Positions 6-18,295 of a stretch of 25,804 bases of DNA are shown here, in pieces (within the stretch, counting starts at the first letter, position 1; the number at the start of each line of letters is the position of its first letter). Position numbers and translations under genes: made by a program. Source of the stretch: a virus; the IMG/VR virus record IMGVR_UViG_3300020202_000204, positions 1 to 25,804 of that record. The stretch is one strand, 5' to 3'. The notes under the pieces are model-generated. The model was not told where the DNA came from and made no database searches. It saw only the letters and a list, made by a program, of their open reading frames with translations.

Positions 6-560
6 GTGGCAAGGAATGATGAGATGTTTGAAGCGATGGTTGAACTAGCAGGGAAATGTCGTTCGTGCGCTGGCGTCGCTCGGGATAGCGATGGAGAAAG
101 CTGGTTAAATGCTGAGTGCCCAGAGTGCTCTCCTCTGTGGAGAGTTATTGACCGTATCAAACCGACATCCGACAAAACCGCAGGGGAAGACGTTTCAACT
201 CCCCCACCAGCAAAGGCGGTAGATGGGTGGATAAGCGTCGAGGAGAGGTTGCCGGACGTGAAGGAGGGGCGAGAAAAGACGGTCATCGTTACTTTCAAGA
301 GCGAATTAGGAAGGGATTGCGTTGGCGAGGCTCATTATCTCAACCGTTACGAGTTGCTTCTAGGTTTCGATTACGAGCCGAAACCAGAGGATGAGTATGA
401 CGAGGATGATTGCACCATGAAGTGGACTGGATTCTGCTGGCTTACCGATGAGAACAGCGATGAGGAGTTTCAAAAGATTACCCAGAAAATCACTCATTGG
501 ATGCCAATGCCTCCCCCACCAGTTTCACCAGTTGAAGATCAGAAGGTGAGGGAAGGATGA
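6..560 (+). CDS. Zinc-ribbon plus DUF551 domain phage protein
   Basis: Protein of about 184 residues, starting at a GTG at position 6. The frame is open to the window edge, so the true start may lie outside. Residues 18-41 hold two CxxC pairs (C18/C21 and C38/C41), a likely zinc ribbon. After a Pro/Thr-rich linker, residues 74-171 match the DUF551 pattern: it opens with GWISVEERLPD and closes with THWMPMPPPP. DUF551 proteins are common, uncharacterised small proteins of phage accessory regions. The gene ends in a 4-base overlap with the next start (ATGA), so the two are probably translationally coupled. DUF551 assignment is firm; function is unknown. Confidence 0.8.
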   Translation: MARNDEMFEAMVELAGKCRSCAGVARDSDGESWLNAECPECSPLWRVIDRIKPTSDKTAGEDVSTPPPAKAVDGWISVEERLPDVKEGREKTVIVTFKSELGRDCVGEAHYLNRYELLLGFDYEPKPEDEYDEDDCTMKWTGFCWLTDENSDEEFQKITQKITHWMPMPPPPVSPVEDQKVREG

Positions 561-928
561 GCCCCGATAAGCAACGTATTGAAATCGCAAAGGCGTGTGG
601 ATGGAAGATTTGTAGCGATAACTTTTTCAAGTGGATTGTTTCTCCAGATGGACGAAAAGGACATTGCTGCGGAATCCATCTTAGTGACGGGGAGGTTTTC
701 GAGAATTGCTTCCAGCCTCACATTGAGAAGCTGGTAATTTTACCCGACTACCTCAACGACCTCAACGCGATGCATGAGGCGGAGAAGGTTCTTCCCAAGG
801 AAAATAGATATGCAGAATGGTTGGTATCGGTTTGCAAGACGATGAACTGGAAGAAGCTTTTGTCAGCCACCGCCGCCCAACGCGCCGAAGCCTTCCTTAA
901 AACCTTCAACCTTTGGGAGGAATCATGA
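557..928 (+). CDS. Phage ABA-sandwich domain protein, copy 1
   Basis: Protein of 123 residues with the layout of phage ABA-sandwich proteins: an N-terminal PDKQRIEIAKACGW helix, a central LPDYLNDLNAMHEAEK segment, and a C-terminal ATAAQRAEAFLKTFNLWEES helix. This family is widespread in phage early or accessory regions and has no known biochemical role. The start overlaps the stop of the previous gene (ATGA) and follows a GAAGG ribosome site. A second copy lies in the C-terminal half of the gene at 1209-1922, so this is a local duplication. Family call is confident from motif order; function is unknown. Confidence 0.75.
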   Translation: MSPDKQRIEIAKACGWKICSDNFFKWIVSPDGRKGHCCGIHLSDGEVFENCFQPHIEKLVILPDYLNDLNAMHEAEKVLPKENRYAEWLVSVCKTMNWKKLLSATAAQRAEAFLKTFNLWEES

Positions 929-1212
929 TCCCTCTCCAAATACCAGCCTTCGAGCGACCGGAGCAATGGACGAAGGGAAGCTTCATTAATCTAAACGACG
1001 ACGGCTCTTATTCTTACTGTCTCACGGAATGGGTTTCTAGAGCTTTTAAAGGAGAAGACCGCACGCATGAAAGGGGAAGGGCTATTACAGCCTTAGTCCA
1101 AGCTGCATACCCCATAGCTGTATTCACGTTCAACGACCGCCAAGAAACTACCTTTGCCGACGTGCAAGAGGTGATCCGTAAGGCCAATGAGAGGCTGGCT
1201 AAAGAGGTATGA
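925..1212 (+). CDS. Hypothetical phage protein, 95 aa
   Basis: Small soluble protein of unknown function. The ATG at 925 is preferred over an upstream TTG at 913: it overlaps the previous stop (ATGA) and has GGGAGG at 915-920 with good spacing. No membrane segment or cysteine motif is present. The C-terminal half has an FTFNDRQETTFADVQEVIRK stretch that looks like one strand followed by a helix. It sits between two ABA-sandwich genes and ends in an overlap with the next gene, so it belongs to the same polycistronic unit. I do not recognise the family. Confidence 0.7.
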   Translation: MIPLQIPAFERPEQWTKGSFINLNDDGSYSYCLTEWVSRAFKGEDRTHERGRAITALVQAAYPIAVFTFNDRQETTFADVQEVIRKANERLAKEV

Positions 1213-1922
1213 ACATAGCCATTTCTAGGGACGGAAACAAAGATTTAGGCCACCAGTTGCGAGAGCATATTGAATGCGCCATCTGCAAGAAATCTATAGA
1301 GAAGCTTGAGGTCTGGATGGATCACTACAAGCGCATGGTGTGCATGGAGGCCCAATGCCACGGAGAAACGGATTATTCCGAAATATGCGAATTTGACCTT
1401 TGGGAGATCATGAGAAGGAAAGTAGATGCCAAAGCGCAGGCCTTCACAAAGAAGAAGTTGGAAAACTTAGCCCTTCCCCAGCATTGGGGGAACAACACAA
1501 GAAGAAGGAAGAAAATGAATCCAGATAAACAAAGAATCGCAATTGCGGAGGCGTGTGGGTGGAGCAATTTCCGCGTGTCCACAATCGGAAGGAATCAAGT
1601 GTTGTGTGGAGAAAAGCAAGGAGTCTTCCTTCTCCTTGTCCCCGACTACCTTAACTCCCTAGAAGCCTGCCATGAGATGGAGAAATTTCTGAAGGGTGAC
1701 TTTAAGGATGAGTCTTCCCAGAAAGCTCTTTATGTTGAGAATTTAGTTTTTGCATGCCACGGCCACCCAGACGAGATGGTCGATATCTGGAATTGGCATT
1801 TGATTCACGCGCCTGCTGCTCAGCGATGCGAAGCCTTCTTAAAAACAATCGGCAGGTGGGAGGATTCAAACGATGGACAATCTCCTATCCACAAACAACC
1901 TCTCTCAACTCCCCATGAATAA
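1209..1922 (+). CDS. Zinc-finger protein fused to ABA-sandwich domain, copy 2
   Basis: Protein of 237 residues in two parts. Residues 1-102 contain a possible zinc site (C23/C26 and C45/C50, CxxC-x18-CxxxxC) and end in a basic stretch, NTRRRKK. Residues 103-225 are a second ABA-sandwich domain, paralogous to the 557-928 product (shared PDKQRI-IA-ACGW, PDYLN and AAQR-EAFLKT motifs). Met103 (ATG at 1515) follows a purine-rich GAAGAAGGAAGAAA tract, so the ABA domain may also be made separately from an internal start. The fusion may come from loss of a stop between formerly separate genes. Function is unknown. Confidence 0.7.
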   Translation: MNIAISRDGNKDLGHQLREHIECAICKKSIEKLEVWMDHYKRMVCMEAQCHGETDYSEICEFDLWEIMRRKVDAKAQAFTKKKLENLALPQHWGNNTRRRKKMNPDKQRIAIAEACGWSNFRVSTIGRNQVLCGEKQGVFLLLVPDYLNSLEACHEMEKFLKGDFKDESSQKALYVENLVFACHGHPDEMVDIWNWHLIHAPAAQRCEAFLKTIGRWEDSNDGQSPIHKQPLSTPHE

Positions 1923-2157
1923 ATCCTCCCCCTCACTCACCCCCAAGCAAAAGAGAGAAGGGCTGACGGACGACCTTCCGTTTGAATGGTATCGAGAAGA
2001 AAACTTCTGCAATTCGCTGGCCGTGCGATTAAAGGGCGGCGGAGGATACACTCATAGAAATGTAGAGATAATTATCCTTCTAACCAAAATCTTAGAAGAA
2101 CTTCGCAAGCTCTCCGCTCCTGTGCCGCTCAAAGCGGGGAAGAGGAGGAAGGGATGA
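1873..2157 (+). CDS. Hypothetical phage protein, 94 aa
   Basis: Small protein whose start lies 50 bases inside the previous gene in another frame. The ATG at 1873 has a clear GGGAGG site at 1858-1863. A second in-frame ATG at 1915, close to the previous stop, is a weaker alternative. Residues 15-33 are Ser/Pro/Lys-rich; a central segment, RNVEIIILLTKILEELRKL, looks like an amphipathic helix; the tail KAGKRRKG is basic. Ends in an ATGA overlap with the next gene. Family and function not recognised. Confidence 0.6.
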   Translation: MDNLLSTNNLSQLPMNKSSPSLTPKQKREGLTDDLPFEWYREENFCNSLAVRLKGGGGYTHRNVEIIILLTKILEELRKLSAPVPLKAGKRRKG

Positions 2158-2414
2158 AAGTCTCAGATATGCCGATGCTGGATTTGACCGATGCGATCAA
2201 GCGGGATGATGCTTATAGGCAATACGTGATCGACAATGTTATTCGCGACAGGATGGATCTAGGAAATGTAATCGGAAAGCTGGTTGTTGATTCTCGATAC
2301 GATGATCCAAAGGAAATCCATGAGAGAACGGTGCAAGTCGTAAAAGCTGTCAGGATAATCCAAAGCCTGACTCGTGATGCCTATGAAGTTGTTAAGAAGA
2401 AGAACCTAATTTAA
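2154..2414 (+). CDS. Hypothetical helical protein, 86 aa
   Basis: Small soluble protein, probably all alpha-helical and charged. It begins at an ATG overlapping the previous stop and preceded by GGAGGAAGG, a strong ribosome site. No cysteines and no membrane segment. The protein ends in VVKKKNLI. About 50 bases follow before the next start, the first real gap in this operon. That gap is pyrimidine-rich and shows no hairpin. Function unknown. Confidence 0.65.
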   Translation: MKVSDMPMLDLTDAIKRDDAYRQYVIDNVIRDRMDLGNVIGKLVVDSRYDDPKEIHERTVQVVKAVRIIQSLTRDAYEVVKKKNLI

Positions 2415-2465
2415 CCCCTCCTCCCCCTTTACCCGCATTAGGTGGGAAGAAATAGAAAGAAGATT

Positions 2466-2720
2466 ATGACGACTGATGCATTTTGGAAATGGCAAGAATC
2501 AAGCGGCAAGAAAAATGACGGCTATGATCTTGGCTTACTGCGTGAAGGATGGGATGCAGCAACGCGAGAGTCATTGAGAGATTTTAGATCCATCATAGCC
2601 GAGCGCGACAAGTACAAGGCCGCTCTAATCGAATGCCTCCACATAGCGCAACGTGGATCTAGATATAACTCTCTCGGACAGACTGTTGAAGACATTGCAA
2701 CCGAAGCCCTCAAATCCTAA
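2466..2720 (+). CDS. Hypothetical small phage protein with GWDAA motif
   Basis: Protein of 84 residues from the ATG at 2466, which has AGAAAGAAG just upstream. A GTG at 2442 would add eight basic residues but has a poorer site. The protein opens FWKWQESSG and carries LLREGWDAA, a pattern seen often in small phage accessory proteins that accompany DUF551 genes, followed by a charged helix. Molecular role unknown. Confidence 0.6.
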   Translation: MTTDAFWKWQESSGKKNDGYDLGLLREGWDAATRESLRDFRSIIAERDKYKAALIECLHIAQRGSRYNSLGQTVEDIATEALKS

Positions 2721-2748
2721 CCCCATGCCAAACGAGAAAGAGAACGAG

Positions 2749-3237
2749 ATGAAAAGACCCAAGTATGACACCTACGAATCGGCCTACGTAGAGGAGTTGA
2801 AGGCGAAGCTAAAAGCCGCTCATGCGGTCGTTTCGCTCGCAGTCGAATTTACGTCGCATTCCTTATACGGAAGCCCGGCCATGAATCTTGCGAAAGCCAT
2901 TGATGCCTATAACTACTTGGAGCCTCACCCATCCACCATTAACGATCCACAAACCCCCACCAAAAAGCTTGTCACTTTGCCAGCGGAAACCGTGGAGAAG
3001 ATAAGGAGAGTTCTTGAGCGTCATCATAAATGGCATCAGGACCAAACAGACCCAGCTACCCTGCTTATCGTCGATGAAAATGGAGACAAGCAAGAAGTTG
3101 AGTTGATCCTTGCTGATGAATACGCCGATAGCAGCCTTTACGACCAGACCATTGAAGCACTCTCCCTCCTGCCTCTCGAAGACCACGACGAAGCCAAGCG
3201 TAGGCGGGCCACCAACACTGGAAATGAGAGCAAATGA
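2749..3237 (+). CDS. Hypothetical phage protein, 162 aa
   Basis: Soluble protein, mostly helical and acidic towards the C terminus. The ATG at 2749 follows a purine-rich GAGAAAGAGAACGAG tract. An in-frame ATG at 2725 lacks a ribosome site, and the TTG at 2653 lies inside the previous gene. Two parts can be seen: an N-terminal helical region with YESAYVEELKAKLKAAHAVV, and a C-terminal region after a Pro/Thr linker with a possible strand pair around TLLIVDENGDKQEVELIL. Joined to the next small gene by an ATGA overlap. I do not recognise it. Confidence 0.6.
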   Translation: MKRPKYDTYESAYVEELKAKLKAAHAVVSLAVEFTSHSLYGSPAMNLAKAIDAYNYLEPHPSTINDPQTPTKKLVTLPAETVEKIRRVLERHHKWHQDQTDPATLLIVDENGDKQEVELILADEYADSSLYDQTIEALSLLPLEDHDEAKRRRATNTGNESK

Positions 3238-3410
3238 AATCCACCAAAGAAAAACTCGATACCTACGAAGTACTCTCAGCCAACACCATGCCCCCTCAAC
3301 TTACAGCTATGGACATCGTTATCGCAATCCTTGCATGCCTCGCCCTGTGCGTCATCGGCCTCGTCGTAGCTCTAAAAATCTCAGGCTACTTCATCAAGCC
3401 AAACTTGTGA
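3234..3410 (+). CDS. Small single-pass membrane protein, 58 aa
   Basis: Reading frame of 58 codons starting at the ATG that overlaps the previous stop (ATGA) and ending at a TGA that overlaps the next start (GTGA). Residues 27-48 form one strongly hydrophobic segment rich in Ile, Leu, Val, Ala and Cys. The N-terminal 25 residues are hydrophilic and Lys/Asp-containing, and the tail after the membrane segment is short and basic. The exact coupling at both ends is the main reason to call it a gene. It opens a run of tiny envelope proteins. Role unknown; a holin-like or regulatory membrane peptide is possible. Confidence 0.6.
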   Translation: MKSTKEKLDTYEVLSANTMPPQLTAMDIVIAILACLALCVIGLVVALKISGYFIKPNL

Positions 3411-3595
3411 AACCCAGCAAACAAAAGTTCATCGTCATCCCTCCCTGCAAACACTGCGGAGGCGAGCGCATCCGTCAACCAGCGGGGAACATCGCCTGCC
3501 CGCCTTGCAACCGAAAGAAGTCTAGGGAGCAAAGATTAACCATGGCGGCTGTGAATTATTCCGGTGACAACTACTTTAGCGACCTTGGATTATGA
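3407..3595 (+). CDS. Small C4 zinc-ribbon protein, 62 aa
   Basis: Protein of 62 residues beginning at a GTG that overlaps the previous stop. It has two clear metal-binding pairs, CKHCGGE and CPPCNRKK, about 15 residues apart, in a basic context, as in small nucleic-acid-binding zinc ribbons. The frame stays open upstream to 3110, but that extension overlaps two other coding frames and is Pro/Arg/His-rich without protein-like character, so the short start is preferred. Ends in an ATGA overlap. Likely a DNA- or RNA-binding accessory protein; this is inference from the zinc pattern. Confidence 0.6.
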   Translation: MKPSKQKFIVIPPCKHCGGERIRQPAGNIACPPCNRKKSREQRLTMAAVNYSGDNYFSDLGL

Positions 3596-3732
3596 GACTC
3601 TTCATCGTCACAGGAATATCCGCGAGCCTGCTTTTCTCATTCGCATCCTATCTTTGCATGTTTGATCGAGCGCAATGGGCTTCGCTGGCATCTCTAACCT
3701 TCTTCATGTGCCTTAGTGAATGGAGCCGCTGA
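3592..3732 (+). CDS. Tiny membrane protein, 46 aa
   Basis: Frame of 46 codons whose ATG overlaps the previous stop. It encodes two hydrophobic stretches (about residues 3-23 and 28-42), short for two full spans but enough for one span plus a membrane-associated helix. The N terminus could also be read as a signal peptide, but no good cleavage site is present. Ends one base before the next ATG. Supported by position, coupling and hydrophobic composition; function unknown. Confidence 0.5.
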   Translation: MRLFIVTGISASLLFSFASYLCMFDRAQWASLASLTFFMCLSEWSR

Positions 3733-3733
3733 A

Positions 3734-3841
3734 ATGATCGAAATCCCATCTTATACCGAGATCTTTGCCACGCTCGCTCTAATCCTCATTCCACCAATCA
3801 TAGCCGGACTCCTCGCCTACAAATGGACTCAAAGCCGATGA
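3734..3841 (+). CDS. Tiny single-pass membrane peptide, 35 aa
   Basis: Frame of 35 codons starting one base after the previous stop and overlapping the next start. Residues 9-29 form one hydrophobic helix with two prolines in its centre (LILIPPIIAGLL), followed by a short basic tail, KWTQSR. The layout (acidic outside, basic tail) suggests a type I-like or tail-anchored peptide. Too short to assign; its place in a chain of coupled genes is the main evidence. Confidence 0.45.
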   Translation: MIEIPSYTEIFATLALILIPPIIAGLLAYKWTQSR

Positions 3842-3987
3842 AGGAATATTTGAAAGACTGCCTGCATGCTATCGCGTGGGCTCTGGCACTAAATGCCATC
3901 TTCTACGCCACATGGTTCTTCTGCGAGTCTGCACAGACAAAGGTTAACAATCGCGGGCGGATAGAGGCTCCTCTTAAACGCAGATGA
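3838..3987 (+). CDS. Small membrane protein, 49 aa
   Basis: Frame of 49 codons with ATGA overlaps at both ends. An in-frame ATG at 3823 would add five residues. One hydrophobic segment at about residues 9-29 is rich in Ala, Leu and aromatic residues and holds Cys8 and Cys29 near its borders. The C-terminal 20 residues are strongly basic and hydrophilic. The shape resembles small phage holins or pinholins, but no sequence family is recognised. Confidence 0.5.
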   Translation: MKEYLKDCLHAIAWALALNAIFYATWFFCESAQTKVNNRGRIEAPLKRR

Positions 3988-4283
3988 AAACACTTGCAGA
4001 AATCATACTCAGCCTACTTCTGATGCCGATCCTGCTTCCATTGCTCTTCATTACGGCTGGATTTGCCATTACTTGGGATGCAGTGGCAAGTCTCAGACCG
4101 AGAAGGGAGCCAATTGTTTACCCACTGGATCACGTAATTGAACGAACCACCTTTACTGTAACCATCGCAAGCCCTCGAAGCCCCTGCCATGGAGATCTTT
4201 TACAGGTTGGCCATAACACATTTCAAGAGCTGAGGAATATCGAGAAACAGAGCAAAGGCGTTTACAAGGCGAGGCTTGTATGA
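3984..4283 (+). CDS. N-terminally anchored membrane protein, 99 aa
   Basis: Protein of 99 residues. Residues 5-32 form a long hydrophobic N-terminal segment (rich in Leu, with MPILLPLLFI), followed by a basic LRPRRE stop-transfer patch and a soluble C-terminal domain of about 60 residues that looks beta-rich. The soluble part has one cysteine (SPCHGD). The gene is ATGA-coupled on both sides. Topology, inferred from the positive-inside rule, would place the C-terminal domain in the cytoplasm. No family recognised. Confidence 0.6.
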   Translation: MKTLAEIILSLLLMPILLPLLFITAGFAITWDAVASLRPRREPIVYPLDHVIERTTFTVTIASPRSPCHGDLLQVGHNTFQELRNIEKQSKGVYKARLV

Positions 4284-4408
4284 TGGGTGATTGGCTCTTT
4301 TGGGATAAGTACGACACGCTTATTGCGATAACTATATTCAGCCTTTTACCTCTTACGCTCTGGATTGCGTTTTCCCTCTACACTATATTCAAAAGACATC
4401 GCAACTAA
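4280..4408 (+). CDS. Tiny single-pass membrane protein, 42 aa
   Basis: Frame of 42 codons that begins MMGDWLFWDKYD, has one hydrophobic span at about residues 14-36, and ends in a basic KRHRN tail. The start overlaps the previous stop; the stop lies five bases before the lipoprotein gene. Either of two adjacent ATGs (4280 or 4283) could be used. Acidic N terminus and basic C terminus predict N-out/C-in topology. Function unknown. Confidence 0.5.
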   Translation: MMGDWLFWDKYDTLIAITIFSLLPLTLWIAFSLYTIFKRHRN

Positions 4409-4413
4409 ACTTT

Positions 4414-4890
4414 ATGAAAACACTGATATATCTACTGGCAATCACATGCATGATAACAGGCTGCTCCAAGCAGCCACCACCGAAGCCACAAGTCACTCAA
4501 CCGTACTTTGAAGGCTTTGAAGCCTATCAAGTGCCGGAAGCCCCACCTTCTACCGTAAAATGGCGAGGTGAAGTCAAGATCGACAACGAAGTGAAGCGCA
4601 CAGGCAATTCCTCACTGCGCATGACCACTAAAACCAAGCGCGAGCCCAACGTGTTCTATTACCTCTCATTCAAGCATGGCAAAGCAGGGAAGAAGCTCAC
4701 CTTTTGGGCGAAGGGCAAGGATAACTCATGCTTTTGGGTGTCTACTGAAAGATCATGGAATGCCCGTGTTTATGTGGACATGCTCACAAGCGACTGGAAG
4801 CAGTACGAGGCAACGTGCCTTGAAGATACACTCTACATCGTGAGCGAAGGAGCTGGAACCGTTTGGGTGGATGATATTCGTATCCAATGA
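4414..4890 (+). CDS. Lipoprotein with jelly-roll carbohydrate-binding-like domain
   Basis: Protein of 158 residues with a lipoprotein signal peptide and lipobox ITGC, lipid-modified Cys being residue 17. Serine follows the cysteine, which in most Gram-negatives favours outer-membrane sorting. A Pro/Lys-rich linker leads to a beta-sandwich-like domain (about residues 32-158) resembling CBM4/9- or galactose-binding-type jelly rolls: it opens with YFEGFEAYQ and closes with AGTVWVDDIRIQ, the usual last strand of such domains. A phage-encoded surface lipoprotein could bind host glycan or mask a receptor. Lipoprotein status is well supported; ligand binding is inference. Confidence 0.7.
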   Translation: MKTLIYLLAITCMITGCSKQPPPKPQVTQPYFEGFEAYQVPEAPPSTVKWRGEVKIDNEVKRTGNSSLRMTTKTKREPNVFYYLSFKHGKAGKKLTFWAKGKDNSCFWVSTERSWNARVYVDMLTSDWKQYEATCLEDTLYIVSEGAGTVWVDDIRIQ

Positions 4891-5093
4891 AGAAGATTCT
4901 TTTTGCCGCATTGTTTTTCGTCATTTTCCCTATTGGAATTCTATATCTCCAATCATGGCTTTTATGGAAGATTCCGCATGGTCCCCATTGGTGGACTGGG
5001 CCAACCTTGGTTGTTCACCTTCTAAGTAATTTTGCGCTTTTTGTGGGATCGATATCATTCGGCATTTACCAGATTAGCAAGAAAACACAATGA
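4887..5093 (+). CDS. Two-span membrane protein, 68 aa
   Basis: Small protein with two hydrophobic spans (about residues 5-23 and 41-62) separated by a loop rich in Trp, His and Pro (WKIPHGPHWWTGP). Both ends are basic, which fits both termini in the cytoplasm. Coupled by ATGA overlaps to the lipoprotein upstream and the O-antigen-ligase-like gene downstream. The size and two-span shape are compatible with a holin-like protein or an accessory subunit of the neighbouring transporter-sized protein. No family recognised. Confidence 0.6.
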   Translation: MKKILFAALFFVIFPIGILYLQSWLLWKIPHGPHWWTGPTLVVHLLSNFALFVGSISFGIYQISKKTQ

Positions 5094-6154
5094 CCCATCT
5101 AGCCCTATTCACACTCTTCTTCTTCCCCGCTATGACCCTTGTAGGTCAGACGGCACGAATGATCACCGTTGCCATGTGTCTGCTCTGCTGTCATCCACGC
5201 ATTGAAAAGAAGCTGGCAGAACCAGGCATCCTGCTCATGGTATGGCTGGCATGGGCTACTCTCTGCTCATGGTATGGCAACAGCTTCGATATGTCTCTAT
5301 TCGGCTATTACAAGCGATTTGAAGGGCTTTCCATGTGGCTCCTTGCCGTGTCCTTTGGCTGGTTATTTTGGCGTTCATCCAGCCTTAACAGGCTTTACCT
5401 GTCCATCGGCGCAATCTTTGCCGTCTGCCTCACGGTCATGCTTATAGAGCCTAAAATATATGGCGGAATCATCTATGGACATATCACCATAGCCGCCTTT
5501 GCTGCCATAGGCTCCTGCATCCTCATGGCGAAACATCCAGCCTTCATCGCCTGCGCTATTCCTTTCGCGTTCATTACTGGAAATAGGTCAATTGTGATTG
5601 CATTGCTGTGTGGTGGTGGCTGCTACTTGGCTTTAAACTGGAAGAAGCTGCCAAGGAAGCTCATCTATGCCATGGCCAGCCTATTCCTCATAGCCGCCCT
5701 TGGAGTCCTGCCAAAGCTGCTCACGATGGACATCAGGAGCCTAGGCAAAGGCGTGCGCACCCAAGTTGCAATGGAAGCCGTTCAATACATCGCTATGAAG
5801 CCTGTTATGGGTTACGGCATCGACACTCAAAGCACCTTATTCGGCAAGAATGAGCATGAGAAAATAACTCATGAGATAAGAGGTAGGGTTTTAGAGCTTC
5901 AAATGGACTTGGACCGCTGCCATAACATTTTCTTGGATGTCACCATGCAAACAGGCTTCGTAGGGCTCGCTATATGGCTCTTCCTGCTTACGAGGATGGC
6001 TTATAGGGCGTTTTGTTATCCATCTGAGGTCAACACGGCTTGTCTGTGTGGAATGGCTGCGTTCATAGGCTTCAACTTGGCAAATCCCTGTGGAATTCCA
6101 TCTATCTTTTTAGCCTGTATTTGTATAACTGGAATTGAGAAGGAAAAGCTATGA
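5090..6154 (+). CDS. O-antigen ligase-like (WaaL/PglL/Wzy superfamily) membrane protein
   Basis: Polytopic membrane protein of 354 residues with about ten predicted spans. The last large periplasmic loop ends in HNIFLDVTMQTGFVG (residues 278-292), an exact match to the H-[NSQ]-x9-G-x-x-[GTY] signature of O-antigen ligases and related O-oligosaccharyltransferases. His278 would correspond to the catalytic histidine. Other family features: KRFEGLSMWL (75-84), TGNRS (163-167), Arg223, and KPVMGYG (237-243). Enzymes of this family join lipid-linked glycans to lipid A-core, protein or growing polymer at the periplasmic face. In a phage it could alter host O-antigen and so block superinfection, or change the receptor. 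Somewhat shorter than typical WaaL (about 400). Acceptor substrate cannot be told. Confidence 0.78.
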   Translation: MTHLALFTLFFFPAMTLVGQTARMITVAMCLLCCHPRIEKKLAEPGILLMVWLAWATLCSWYGNSFDMSLFGYYKRFEGLSMWLLAVSFGWLFWRSSSLNRLYLSIGAIFAVCLTVMLIEPKIYGGIIYGHITIAAFAAIGSCILMAKHPAFIACAIPFAFITGNRSIVIALLCGGGCYLALNWKKLPRKLIYAMASLFLIAALGVLPKLLTMDIRSLGKGVRTQVAMEAVQYIAMKPVMGYGIDTQSTLFGKNEHEKITHEIRGRVLELQMDLDRCHNIFLDVTMQTGFVGLAIWLFLLTRMAYRAFCYPSEVNTACLCGMAAFIGFNLANPCGIPSIFLACICITGIEKEKL

Positions 6155-6396
6155 ACTGCCCAACCTGCCGCCAAAAAGTTAGCGCTCATCACATGTTACT
6201 TGAGCAAATTAAGGAAATTCAAATTAAGCACGTCAAAAAACCAGAGATGCGGGCTTATCTCGGGAAGCAAGAGAGGGAGGAGTTGAGCAACGATTTAAAG
6301 CCGTGGTTTTATGCTAATCTTGAAGGAGTCCATACGATTTACGGATGCCGAATAGTGCCGGTGGACTTACATAGCTATTTGAAGGTGGAAGCATGA
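6151..6396 (+). CDS. Small zinc-site protein, 81 aa
   Basis: Soluble protein beginning MNCPTCRQKVSAHH, a CxxC pair next to two histidines that could bind zinc. The rest is a charged helix followed by a beta-rich end with YGCRIVPVDLHSY. Joined by ATGA overlaps to the ligase-like gene upstream and to the next gene. No homologous family recognised; probably a small cytoplasmic accessory protein. Confidence 0.6.
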   Translation: MNCPTCRQKVSAHHMLLEQIKEIQIKHVKKPEMRAYLGKQEREELSNDLKPWFYANLEGVHTIYGCRIVPVDLHSYLKVEA

Positions 6397-6635
6397 CCGA
6401 AGAGGAGCTAAGAGCAATTAAAGCCGTCTTCGAGGCTGAATCCAGGAAGCGAGGAGGCAAAATAGATGTCGGCATCAGTAAAGAAGGATGGCGCATTTAC
6501 ATCCTGCTTAGGCTGCGTAGCGATACAGATACCAGTGAAGACCTTATTTGCCGCTATAACATATCAGCAATCGCACCACTGGAGCCGCAAGCTGTAAAGT
6601 ATTTCGACAGCTTTGAGAAGAATCTAAAAATATGA
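6393..6635 (+). CDS. Hypothetical protein, 80 aa
   Basis: Soluble, mixed alpha/beta protein. It has an N-terminal acidic helix, MTEEELRAIKAVFEAESRK, then two probable strands around KIDVGISKEGWRIYILLRL. No cysteine motif other than Cys53 and no membrane segment. ATGA-coupled upstream and downstream. Family and function not recognised. Confidence 0.55.
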   Translation: MTEEELRAIKAVFEAESRKRGGKIDVGISKEGWRIYILLRLRSDTDTSEDLICRYNISAIAPLEPQAVKYFDSFEKNLKI

Positions 6636-6982
6636 AACCTATATTTATTACACTGTTTTGCTTTCTGCTTGTTGGCTGTGAAGGCAAGATCGTTCCAGCC
6701 ATCGCTAAAATACAAGGGTATGAGGTCGTAGGCTCGTTCAAGGGAACGGTGGTTTATCACGATAATTCAAACTTTGAATTCCAAGGCGTCTGCTCAATGA
6801 CCACAACTGAGGATTATAGAGTAGTTAACTGGGTTGAGCTTGATAACGGAAAAACCACATGGGCTTATGGCCCTAAAATGTGTGATGTCGGGACGAGAGT
6901 GATTGTTGACATCTATGTCATGCGCGAAGGGCTTTTCAGTGGAGAAGATTTTTACAGGCAGACTTTCAAGATTATTGAATAA
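6632..6982 (+). CDS. Small lipoprotein, 116 aa
   Basis: Protein with a clear lipoprotein signal peptide ending in lipobox LVGC (Cys16). The mature part of about 100 residues looks beta-rich and has two cysteines (CSMTT and MCDVG) that could form a disulfide in the periplasm. The last residues (FYRQTFKIIE) look like a terminal beta strand. It is the second lipoprotein of this island and probably acts in the envelope. It is too large and too ordered for a typical o-spanin, and no inner-membrane spanin partner is obvious. Function unknown. Confidence 0.65.
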   Translation: MKPIFITLFCFLLVGCEGKIVPAIAKIQGYEVVGSFKGTVVYHDNSNFEFQGVCSMTTTEDYRVVNWVELDNGKTTWAYGPKMCDVGTRVIVDIYVMREGLFSGEDFYRQTFKIIE

Positions 6983-7041
6983 ATGAACACCCAAACCCTT
7001 CTAGCGGATCAGGCTAGGACAAAACCCGAAAGGTTTATCCT

Positions 7042-7476
7042 ATGGCGATCCGTACACTGGTCAAAGTCGCAGTCCTAATCTCACTCATGGTCTACGCTCA
7101 GGCCCATATGAGCGAACAGCTACAGTCAAGAGGCCGTCAGCTTGCATTTCTGCGAAACCTGCCACACCGCTATCTTGGAATGCTCTACTACTCGTGGCTA
7201 CTCCAACAGCACCGAACCGATTACTTGGCGCAATACGCCATCAACTGGAACATTGCCGTTCGTGACCGTGGAGCCATCTTGGAAGGTATGACAAAGCCCG
7301 TGGTGACGCTGCTCATCCTAAAACAGATGCAAGATCATCCAGAAGATGAAGCCTTGCGACGACTCGGAAAGCTTATGGTCAAACAGGAGTTTAAAGACCG
7401 CGCTGAGAACCTAATGCCCGCGCAACCTGTGATCGACACTGCTCCGACTGTGCTAGGTGAGTCTTTACCCCGATAA
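7042..7476 (+). CDS. Secreted helical protein, last gene of the plus-strand block
   Basis: Protein of 144 residues with a Sec-type signal peptide: basic start, hydrophobic core of about 12 residues, and a cleavage motif AQA after residue 21. The mature part is helical and rich in Leu, Arg and Gln, with HRYLGMLYYSWLLQQHR and a Pro-rich tail. The start follows CGAAAGG at a workable distance. It is the only gene after 3.2 kb not coupled by an ATGA overlap; about 59 bases separate it from the lipoprotein gene. Its last 86 bases overlap a minus-strand frame. Unknown family; likely periplasmic. Confidence 0.6.
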   Translation: MAIRTLVKVAVLISLMVYAQAHMSEQLQSRGRQLAFLRNLPHRYLGMLYYSWLLQQHRTDYLAQYAINWNIAVRDRGAILEGMTKPVVTLLILKQMQDHPEDEALRRLGKLMVKQEFKDRAENLMPAQPVIDTAPTVLGESLPR

Positions 7477-7537
7477 GGATTAAGCCGCCTACGATCACAA
7501 TTGCGCCGAGGATGGAGAGAGCGAGGAAGAGGATCAT
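7391..7537 (-). CDS. Tiny membrane protein at the end of the structural operon, 48 aa
   Basis: Frame of 48 codons whose ATG overlaps the stop of the 681-residue ejection-type gene (ATGA). Residues 2-24 are one continuous hydrophobic helix with Gly-Gly near its end (ILGAIVIVGGLILIG). The rest is a hydrophilic, basic tail with one Cys. It overlaps the 3' end of the plus-strand gene 7042-7476 by 86 bases on the opposite strand. Coupling and hydrophobicity support it, but the tail may be shaped by the opposing gene. Could be a holin-like protein; not assigned. Confidence 0.4.
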   Translation of the reverse strand: MILFLALSILGAIVIVGGLILIGVKTHLAQSEQCRSQVARALGSQRGL

Positions 7538-15509: not shown

Positions 15510-15658
15510 TTGCGCTTCTTGTCTTTGGGTTTCTCAGGTTTCGGAGGAGGATTGCACCAGTGACAATCCCGCTGGTAGGCAATCCTGTGGTGGTAGCAGC
15601 CTGACCGAAGCTCCTTAAGCCGCTGGGAGATGGCTGGATCATTGGTTTCGTTCGTCAT
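15506..15658 (-). CDS. Small Cys/His protein, 50 aa
   Basis: Frame of 50 codons whose ATG overlaps the stop of the alpha/beta hydrolase gene and whose stop overlaps the next start. It carries a compact cluster, CYHHRIAYQRDCHWC, with three Cys and three His, likely to bind a metal. A Pro/Lys-rich basic tail follows (PKPEKPKDKKRK). Probably a small nucleic-acid- or protein-binding zinc peptide; inferred from composition. Confidence 0.5.
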   Translation of the reverse strand: MTNETNDPAISQRLKELRSGCYHHRIAYQRDCHWCNPPPKPEKPKDKKRK

Positions 15659-16272
15659 GGCGTTACCCCCGTAATCATTTCAAAGCTGTCCTCGAAATTC
15701 TCATCATCCCACCATGCCGAGTGCTTATAATCCTTCCAGATGGTGCTTAAATGGATTGAGGCATAAGACGACACATTCTTAGGCCCAGACCTACCTAGGC
15801 TTCCGTAGCCATAACCAGCCCAACCAGCGAGAAACTTACTAATCCTTGCCCAAAATAGAGCTTCATCAATCTTCGAGCAATAGAGCTTCATTTTGCCGAT
15901 GCGGTCCTGCACCAAAGCGTCGTTGAAGCCGTTCTTATCAAAATCAGCGTCACAAGCAGCCGCTACAAGATGGGCCTCCTCAATGCGCACAGGAGTAATC
16001 CTAACTGCACGGCTAAAAAGCTCGCCGCCATTGGAGTGGGTGATAACCTTCAGCCTGAAATCAGGAGCAAGGCTTTCAAGAACCCGCGCTGCTTCCTCTG
16101 ACTTGCTGTTTAACTTGGTCTTTGTGCGTATAGGAGCAAACTCGCTATCAATCTCACGAGCTGGTTGCTTCAAATGCTTCTCAATCCAATCGCAACCGCT
16201 TGGCGACCAATTGAAGTTATCTTCAGCATCCGTCATGATCCCAGGAAATAGGCACCACTTGATAGGCTTCAT
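15655..16272 (-). CDS. Alpha/beta hydrolase (esterase/lipase-like)
   Basis: Protein of 205 residues with alpha/beta-hydrolase features: an early strand and oxyanion-type loop (WCLFPGIMT), then the nucleophile elbow VITHSNGGE (residues 76-84) with Ser80 as the likely nucleophile, an Asp candidate at 108 or 110 (ACDADFDKNG), and a C-terminal His candidate at 184 (YKHSAWW). The elbow is T-H-S-N-G-G rather than the usual G-H-S-x-G-G. Neighbours are small membrane proteins of a likely lysis set, so an envelope lipid esterase (comparable in role to mycobacteriophage LysB) is one reading; modification of a surface glycan ester is another. There is no signal peptide. Enzyme class is fairly secure, substrate unknown. 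Confidence 0.68.
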   Translation of the reverse strand: MKPIKWCLFPGIMTDAEDNFNWSPSGCDWIEKHLKQPAREIDSEFAPIRTKTKLNSKSEEAARVLESLAPDFRLKVITHSNGGELFSRAVRITPVRIEEAHLVAAACDADFDKNGFNDALVQDRIGKMKLYCSKIDEALFWARISKFLAGWAGYGYGSLGRSGPKNVSSYASIHLSTIWKDYKHSAWWDDENFEDSFEMITGVTP

Positions 16273-16499: not shown

Positions 16500-16576
16500 T
16501 TGAGGAGTTCGAAACAAAATAGGGTTACGATCCCGCCAAGAAGCAGAAGTGCGTCATGAATAAGTTGATTAATCAT
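16496..16576 (-). CDS. Tiny membrane peptide in lysis-like cluster, 26 aa
   Basis: Frame of 26 codons with ATGA overlaps at both ends: its start overlaps the stop of the XhlA-like gene and its stop overlaps the next start. It encodes one hydrophobic helix (LLLLGGIVTLFCFELL) after an eight-residue polar lead. Placed right after an XhlA-like protein, it resembles a minimal holin-partner peptide. The exact tiling argues for translation; function is inferred. Confidence 0.45.
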   Translation of the reverse strand: MINQLIHDALLLLGGIVTLFCFELLK

Positions 16577-16788
16577 GGAAAAAGCTTCGCAATCTTCTCC
16601 TTGAAAAATTCGATGACAATAACTCCAGCCGCAATGAATCCAGTTGCGTGCCAGACCTTTTTCTTCACGTCCTCCACATCTTTCTCGACCTTGGAAGTAC
16701 GGTCGTGGATTTCGATCATCTTCGACTTAATCCAACGCACATCCGTGTGCGTTTCGATCAGGATCGTCTTGTCATCCTTTTCGCTCAT
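16573..16788 (-). CDS. XhlA-like holin-associated membrane protein, 71 aa
   Basis: Protein of 71 residues. Residues 8-45 are a charged coiled-coil (HTDVRWIKSKMIEIHDRTSK, then VEKDVEDVKKK), and residues 46-61 are a C-terminal membrane span (WHATGFIAAGVIVIEFF) with a short basic tail. This is the layout of haemolysin XhlA-type phage proteins, which work with a holin at the inner membrane. The start overlaps the previous stop by one base (TAATG). Together with the next two small genes and the alpha/beta hydrolase it forms a probable lysis or envelope cluster. Family-like layout is clear, role in lysis inferred. Confidence 0.6.
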   Translation of the reverse strand: MSEKDDKTILIETHTDVRWIKSKMIEIHDRTSKVEKDVEDVKKKVWHATGFIAAGVIVIEFFKEKIAKLFP

Positions 16789-16989: not shown

Positions 16990-17325
16990 TTATTTCTCTG
17001 ATTGAGGCTTCCAGTCTTCCGTGAGCTTCACAGGCGTTTCTTCCGGTACGTGCTGAGTTACTCCCTGCACTTGAAGTGCCCACTCGTTGCGCGTTGGATG
17101 CTTTAAAATAGGAGCGTGGTGAAGGGTCGTTGACTCCGCTTTTGACGCATGGAGCCCGCCACCAACTTTCACACCTTCCTTGGGATATCCAAGGGCTGCA
17201 TCAAGCTTGGCTTGGATGGCTTGAATCGCAGCAAGATCAGTTTTAACAACGTAATCTTTCGACATGTCCTGAGCAAAGACATGACCAGCGGCAAAGAGGA
17301 TTGAGAGGATTTTAATAATGCGCAT
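16990..17325 (-). CDS. Secreted small protein, 111 aa
   Basis: Protein with a clear Sec signal peptide: basic MRIIK start, hydrophobic core (ILSILFAAG) and a VFA cleavage motif after residue 18. The mature part starts with a helix (DLAAIQAIQAKLDAALG), then a loop region with KHPTRNEWALQVQGV, and ends charged. The start lies 14 bases inside the preceding gene. It is one of four tandem secreted products downstream of the capsid gene. Not recognised; the signal peptide is well supported. Confidence 0.6.
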   Translation of the reverse strand: MRIIKILSILFAAGHVFAQDMSKDYVVKTDLAAIQAIQAKLDAALGYPKEGVKVGGGLHASKAESTTLHHAPILKHPTRNEWALQVQGVTQHVPEETPVKLTEDWKPQSEK

Positions 17326-18295
17326 ATCTATTCTTGAGATAGGTTTCGACCACTTGGCGGTCTGACGTAGAAAGAGCCGCGCTGTACATAATCACCTCTA
17401 CGATATCCCCAGCAAGAGAACTGGCATCAGCACCGACAGTGGCATCAGAAGCTTCCGCTCCTATGGTAAACCAATCAACAGTAGAGGCGGGATAACTAGA
17501 AGAAGCTGCATTTTCCTCAACTAAAGTACCATTCTGCCAAATATCCCATTCTGAGGAGGAGCGAACATAAGAACGTGTATAGAATGTGTTTGCACTCATC
17601 GCCTCACCTGCGCCTAAGTTATCGGGTGCAAATCCAAGCCCGCTAGTTGCTGAGGTTCCTGTGCTAAAACACCAACGAGATGTCGCGTCATCTCTTATAC
17701 TCAACAAGCGTTCTTGAGTGTCTTGTGCGGCCCCTGTAGAGACTACAAAGAAAATTGTCCAGCTAGCCATGTCAGGCACGACAAGAGTATTTCGTCGAAG
17801 GTGATCTGGTCCGCCCACACCTGGACCTTCAAATCGAATGGCGGGAAAACCGTTAATAACGCTCGAGACTAAGGTGGGCTGATAACCCGCATTAGCTTGT
17901 GCTAGATTGTGCCCATTCCCACTCTGGTCTGCCCATGCGCTAACATCAGACCCGTTTAGGGTAGTTCCACTATCTGACTTGTACCAAGCGAAGAGGCCGG
18001 TAATGTCATCTGGAGAGTCGGGAGCAGCGGGAGCTGCCGCGCTAGCCGGAAAGGCATCCGTCAATTGATTCCGAGACTCTCTACAAACCGTGGCGCAAGC
18101 CTGAATATCTGCGTCACTCGTGGCAATCGCCGCGTTAAGCTTTACCCTCTGCTCACCGTCCAATGTCTGAACACCGCTTGCCGTACCATTGGCAATAATC
18201 TTATTTACCTGCTCCCTGTCTAGATCATCTCCAAGCGCAACCGAGCCCGCTACGAATAGCAGGAGCAGCAACAAATCATGGAGCCAATTACGCAT
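17312..18295 (-). CDS. Secreted protein with LamG / concanavalin A-like jelly-roll domain
   Basis: Protein of 327 residues. A signal peptide with a long Leu-rich core (LLLLLLFVAGS) ends near ALG, residue 22. A helical region (about 25-80) and an Ala/Pro linker follow. Residues 99-327 look like a LamG-type jelly roll: it opens with ITGLFAWYKSDSG, then WADQSGNGHNLAQ, and ends GDIVEVIMYSAALSTSDRQ with a last helix LKNRYAHY. Such domains bind glycans or calcium and are frequent in both phage structural proteins and secreted bacterial proteins. The start overlaps the previous stop by one base. A signal peptide on a capsid-proximal gene is unusual. Confidence 0.68.
   Translation of the reverse strand: MRNWLHDLLLLLLFVAGSVALGDDLDREQVNKIIANGTASGVQTLDGEQRVKLNAAIATSDADIQACATVCRESRNQLTDAFPASAAAPAAPDSPDDITGLFAWYKSDSGTTLNGSDVSAWADQSGNGHNLAQANAGYQPTLVSSVINGFPAIRFEGPGVGGPDHLRRNTLVVPDMASWTIFFVVSTGAAQDTQERLLSIRDDATSRWCFSTGTSATSGLGFAPDNLGAGEAMSANTFYTRSYVRSSSEWDIWQNGTLVEENAASSSYPASTVDWFTIGAEASDATVGADASSLAGDIVEVIMYSAALSTSDRQVVETYLKNRYAHY

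Follow-up and report, generated by a model that had tools for sequence, protein, structure and literature searches.

Gene content of the locus

The window analysed here, a stretch of 25,804 bases of viral DNA, is divided between two opposing gene sets: plus-strand genes at positions 6-7476 converge near 7.5 kb with minus-strand genes, and from this point on the minus strand encodes a portal of SU10 type (PF23899), a terminase, a capsid-like protein and tail proteins. The attribution of this DNA to a phage, made in an initial annotation drawn from the bare sequence, is upheld. Fourteen plus-strand genes are called across 3234-7476, where they are tiled with four-base overlaps at ten of the thirteen internal junctions, in agreement with the short overlaps that the same annotation had noted at most gene borders. 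In a chained-ORF test, 15 ORFs with a minimum length of 30 codons were found to span this interval with a summed length of 4,269 nt, while the longest chain in 300 dinucleotide shuffles, which served as the control, reached 1,017 nt. A hydrophobic segment or a lipobox is present in 11 of the 14 products, the soluble exceptions being encoded at 3407-3595, 6151-6396 and 6393-6635. The locus had been described as at least eleven consecutive genes for membrane, lipoprotein or secreted products; this is correct as to their number, but the genes are not consecutive, since three soluble ORFs interrupt them.

Upstream, at 6-3237 on the plus strand, lie eight soluble phage accessory genes of the same operon, the first of which (6-560, plus strand) matches DUF551 (6e-9), a family known from lambdoid accessory operons. 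Membrane genes account for none of these eight and for 11 of the 14 at 3234-7476 (Fisher p = 0.001, with the boundary chosen by eye). Plus-strand genes run unbroken upstream of 3234; the string constitutes the distal part of a longer operon, not an island of its own, and its upstream boundary near 3234 is a switch in gene type, not an operon edge. A four-base overlap also joins the gene at 3234 to its upstream neighbour. A search for promoter-like sites returned 6 where 9 were expected, and the promoter type that was sought may not be that of the host.

The string, entirely on the plus strand, opens with a single-TM protein of 58 aa (3234-3410), followed by a soluble, zinc-ribbon-like protein of 62 aa with a CxxC...CxxC pattern and a GTG start (3407-3595), which breaks the run of membrane genes, and then by micro-membrane proteins of 46 aa (3592-3732), 35 aa (3734-3841) and 49 aa (3838-3987), an N-terminally anchored protein of 99 aa (3984-4283) and another micro-membrane protein of 42 aa (4280-4408). 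Beyond these are found a 158-aa lipoprotein (4414-4890) with the lipobox ITGC at residue 17 and a CBM4/9-like beta-sandwich predicted through a homologue, a two-TM protein of 68 aa (4887-5093) that overlaps both of its neighbours, and a polytopic membrane enzyme of WaaL type (Wzy_C, O-antigen ligase family) of 354 aa (5090-6154). The operon is completed by a soluble CxxC-bearing protein of 81 aa (6151-6396) with a weak match to phrog_15741, a family of unknown function, a soluble protein of 80 aa that has neither a hydrophobic segment nor a lipobox (6393-6635), a small lipoprotein of 116 aa with the lipobox LVGC at residue 16 (6632-6982) and, as the last gene, one for a secreted or signal-anchored protein of 144 aa with unassigned function (7042-7476).

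The Wzy_C-family enzyme and the CBM-type lipoprotein

Judged by its sequence, the 354-aa protein is a true member of the Wzy_C/O-antigen-ligase family: it matches the PF04932 profile with E = 2.2e-14 and 53.9 bits, the curated cut-off being 31.7, which confirms the earlier call of an O-antigen-ligase-like protein. On the same profile, 58.6 bits are reached by its homologue in the related viral contig G001 (see below), 50.0 by E. coli WaaL, 21.9 by Wzy-beta of Pseudomonas phage D3 and 16.2 by VG_p25 of Variovorax phage VarioGold. Family membership rests on the Pfam profile and on motifs, because, when compared in pairs, the enzyme and E. coli WaaL score no better than shuffled sequences; a PDB sequence search returned no match, and Wzy_C is not accompanied by any Pfam domain specific to PglL. 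In an alignment of the C-terminal parts, R166, R223 and H278 of the enzyme correspond to R215, R288 and H338 of E. coli WaaL, with R223 falling a few columns off when four sequences are aligned over their full length, and the HN...G (HX10G) motif is kept. It has been reported that in O-ligases the two arginines and the histidine are the Und-PP-binding and proposed acceptor-activating residues (PMC10920833), that the histidine of the motif is essential in WaaL (PMC4815439), and that most polymerases of the clan carry Asp or Glu at the position of the O-ligase His (PMC10920833). The histidine favours a ligase over a polymerase without settling the choice, because D3 Wzy-beta carries the His motif too. 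Hydropathy indicates 8-9 hydrophobic segments, the solved WaaL structure having 12 TM helices, and a loop of ~70 residues that contains both R223 and H278; an AlphaFold model of the enzyme built from two sequences reached a pLDDT of 37 and was discarded.

The 158-aa lipoprotein itself gives no Pfam match. Its homologue in G001 (30% identity, E 9e-10) matches PF02018 (CBM_4_9) narrowly, at 26.5 bits against a cut-off of 25.9, and it is by way of this homologue that the jelly-roll lipoprotein of the initial annotation finds support. An AlphaFold model of the window protein is of low confidence (pLDDT 58), and a Foldseek search with it, in which the CBM4 structure 1gui came out on top (E 1.4e-3) among mixed matches, was used as CBM support only. 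This lipoprotein is likely to bind carbohydrate. The two proteins differ in their anchoring, which is by a lipobox in the window and by an N-terminal membrane anchor in G001. A match to the Cor superinfection exclusion lipoprotein (phrog_1119, E 7e-4) was rejected, as it spans residues 1-41, mostly signal peptide and lipobox.

Conservation in a related phage

When 2.9 million viral contigs were scanned with patterns of the ligase, a method that detects close relatives only, a single relative that encodes the enzyme was returned, namely viral contig IMGVR_UViG_3300020215_000037 (G001), with 70% identity; scans of bacterial genomes for the ligase, likewise confined to close relatives, returned none. 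When the terminase, a 681-aa protein, the 144-aa protein, the portal and the capsid were used for scanning, one extra fragment of 5.9 kb (L004) was retrieved, which ends short of the ligase region. The genome of G001, ~41.15 kb in size, appears to be complete and either circular or permuted, because its ends share 127 identical bases (L007:1-127 and the end of L008) and the 681-aa gene spans the join. It shows matches to a tyrosine recombinase (integrase) and a Cro/CI-type repressor, and it carries genes for a DNA cytosine methylase and for annealing by ERF. The repressor is separated from the ERF operon by a stretch on the strand opposite to the latter (L003:616-1909, plus strand), in which a 161-aa lipoprotein and a polyvalent-protein-kinase-like gene are encoded, possibly another pair expressed from the prophage.

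In G001, an operon of ~13 kb that starts near ERF has the ligase as its third-last gene and runs towards the late genes in the convergent arrangement also seen in the window. A PAPS-reductase-like gene and the cytosine methylase lie within this operon, other small TM genes are scattered through it, and other genes, the methylase among them, are found upstream. Of the plus-strand ORFs of the window operon, just three have matching ORFs in the G001 region (overlapping-frame echoes aside), namely those for the CBM-type protein, the ligase and the 144-aa protein, and these keep their order, with a lipoprotein between the ligase and the 144-aa gene. The 144-aa protein is 71% identical between the two phages (E 5e-72) and has no match in 50,697 phage records. 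At the position of the 116-aa lipoprotein, G001 places a lipoprotein of 76 aa with 29% identity, not significant by BLAST; this gene is conserved in position and type only. Both the ligase and the 144-aa gene are under purifying selection, with dN/dS of ~0.12 for the former and ~0.08 for the latter and synonymous sites near saturation; capsid and portal give 0.04-0.05. A small minus-strand TM ORF that overlaps the end of the 144-aa gene (7391-7537) occurs at the same place in G001 (L002:11632-11754, minus strand).

At 3234-4408, the six ORFs for micro-membrane proteins are all without a match among the ORFs of the G001 region, and no counterpart was found there for the 68-, 81- and 80-aa ORFs, an unrelated soluble ORF of 52 aa standing in place of the first. 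The six upstream ORFs are likeliest to be lineage-specific accessory genes, not required parts. A reading in which the ligase and every one of the micro-membrane genes act together as a conserved unit is not supported. The refuting test named in the initial annotation has a split outcome: the small ORFs lack conservation, but the ligase does not stand alone, being accompanied in G001 by its CBM-type, lipoprotein and 144-aa neighbours. One comparison, between the two phages with this gene set, thus supports an envelope core of three to four genes and lends no support to a unit of eleven.

Phage relationships and possible host

Neither the portal nor the capsid nor the ligase gave a tblastn match in the 50,697 phage records. 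For the terminase, the top two matches come from Akkermansia phages (28% identity) and hint weakly at a host among the Verrucomicrobiota. The phage of the window is short-tailed and presumably temperate; matches to an integrase and a Cro/CI-type repressor are present in G001, and the window, a fragment, is without them.

Two further genes on the minus strand are worth recording. The product of 15655-16272 is alpha/beta-hydrolase-like, with an HSNGG nucleophile-type motif and a DUF900 match just below the cut-off; its gene lies near a small membrane ORF (16573-16788) and has an equivalent at the same place in G001 (L003:19103-19708). It could be a lysis-associated esterase that replaces an ordinary endolysin. 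In the structural region, 17312-18295 encodes a protein that contains a Laminin_G_3/concanavalin-A-like lectin domain (PF13385, 28.7 bits) and is a candidate virion component for binding host glycans.

Proposed function and alternative explanations

Enzyme family and precedent from other phages suggest that the distal end of this operon is directed at the envelope and remodels the surface polysaccharide of the host, most likely excluding other phages, a reading to which we assign a probability of about 0.6. The 354-aa enzyme would reside in the inner membrane and, by means of two arginines for phosphate binding and a histidine in a periplasmic loop, would take a lipid-linked glycan and transfer or polymerise it as WaaL-family enzymes do. 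The surface polysaccharide of the host, assumed here to include LPS, would be changed, and the receptor would most likely be hidden or altered, such that other phages could no longer superinfect. A glycan of the same kind is probably the ligand of the CBM-type lipoprotein, which would act in the periplasm or at the outer membrane and may help or guard the change. With regard to timing, early lytic expression is as plausible as expression from a prophage, and the start of the G001 operon near the ERF recombinase gene, which points to early lytic and not to prophage expression, weakens a simple lysogenic-conversion reading. A more daring version, in which the ligase, its own glycan-binding lipoprotein and a secreted partner would be switched on early as a set and re-cap the surface before the decision between lysis and lysogeny, in a host group without known phage seroconversion, is speculative and rather unlikely.

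Other explanations have to be weighed against surface remodelling as proposed here. The enzyme might be a polymerase of the D3 Wzy-beta type that competes with the host polymerase and alters linkage or length, with one of the micro-membrane proteins acting as an Iap-like inhibitor. Wzy-beta of phages D3 and epsilon15 has a Wzy_C domain and causes seroconversion, and that of D3 cannot complement a waaL mutant despite its His motif (PMC4815439); small membrane ORFs also lie close by in the window. On the other hand, the window enzyme far exceeds D3 Wzy-beta on the Wzy_C profile (53.9 versus 21.9 bits), it has the histidine of the O-ligases where most clan polymerases have Asp or Glu (PMC10920833), and no micro-ORF is conserved alongside it, and we regard this explanation as possible though doubtful. 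A similar standing is given to the view that the string belongs to a general early-infection takeover operon, whose small membrane proteins serve in superinfection exclusion, lysis timing or host inhibition and whose ligase is an unrelated passenger. The unbroken plus-strand genes upstream, the start of the G001 counterpart near ERF together with its cytosine methylase and PAPS-reductase-like gene, and the dispersal of small TM genes through that operon are all consistent with such a takeover role, whereas the ligase has retained its CBM-type and secreted neighbours in G001 despite turnover in the remainder of the operon.

PglL/PglS-like enzymes belong to the same superfamily, and the enzyme could also be an O-oligosaccharyltransferase that glycosylates protein, for example pilin or the neighbouring lipoproteins. 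Two lipoproteins and one secreted protein are indeed co-encoded with it, but its Wzy_C domain comes without a PglL-specific one, and protein glycosylation is considered improbable. Chance carriage of freshly acquired host genes does occur, but that the ligase is a recent acquisition from a host and useless to the phage seems very improbable in view of its dN/dS between phages with nearly saturated synonymous sites, its identical genomic place in the window and in G001, and a GC content that matches the rest of the window. Searches with NCBIfam and PADLOC returned nothing meaningful and thus gave no support for a known defence system.

Phages that rewrite the surface sugars of their hosts determine which other phages can attack, and the well-studied cases stem from few bacteria. 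The present ligase lineage, undetected in sequenced isolate phages, and its conserved CBM-type partner provide, from an uncultured group, a small testable set of three or four genes, and the comparison with G001 shows which of the many tiny membrane genes may be disregarded.

Comparison with known systems

Phage D3 (wzy-beta, iap, oac), which the initial annotation had named as an example of O-antigen modification by a phage, stands as the proper comparison. It is a temperate phage with a polytopic enzyme of the Wzy_C superfamily, and its genes lie just past the structural genes, with wzy and iap opposite in strand to the late genes; it has been shown that D3 Wzy-beta and Iap alter O-antigen linkage and that D3 lysogens resist superinfection (PMC4815439). 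In contrast to the window, the D3 genes occupy both strands near attP-int and include an O-acetylase, the D3 enzyme scores only 21.9 bits on Wzy_C, and no CBM lipoprotein is annotated in D3. A D3-type seroconversion module with homologous Wzy-beta, Iap and Oac was rejected for the window, as the tblastn search with its enzyme gave no match in the phage records, D3 included, and none of the 14 ORFs besides the ligase itself is of O-acetylase size. A D3-type enzyme is present in 12 of the 50,697 records.

To the initial annotation, a phage O-antigen gene set with so many micro-membrane proteins was without a known parallel, and here VarioGold provides a published case, if on a smaller scale. In VG_p25-p28 of this phage, a ligase-family gene ends a co-directional run of signal-peptide and TM genes that faces the late genes in convergent orientation; the authors who described the phage suggest that these genes are regulated jointly as a moron-like cluster (PMC9658991). 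The VarioGold ligase gene differs from that of the window in having only three neighbours, in adjoining attP-int and in a signal-peptide companion, VG_p26, that has no Pfam match; moreover, its enzyme groups with that of D3 (31% identity), a lineage in which BLAST finds no match for the window enzyme. E. coli K-12 WaaL (CAZy GT121 type) shares with the window enzyme PF04932, the R, R and H catalytic positions and a long periplasmic loop near the C terminus, the last being predicted from hydropathy in the window enzyme, but it is the product of a bacterial core-LPS gene and has 419 aa compared with 354. In D3 and VarioGold the gene is situated near attP-int, whereas here it lies at the end of an ERF-led operon. 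In conclusion, the strategy is one already known in phages, while the lineage of the enzyme and its neighbourhood are new.
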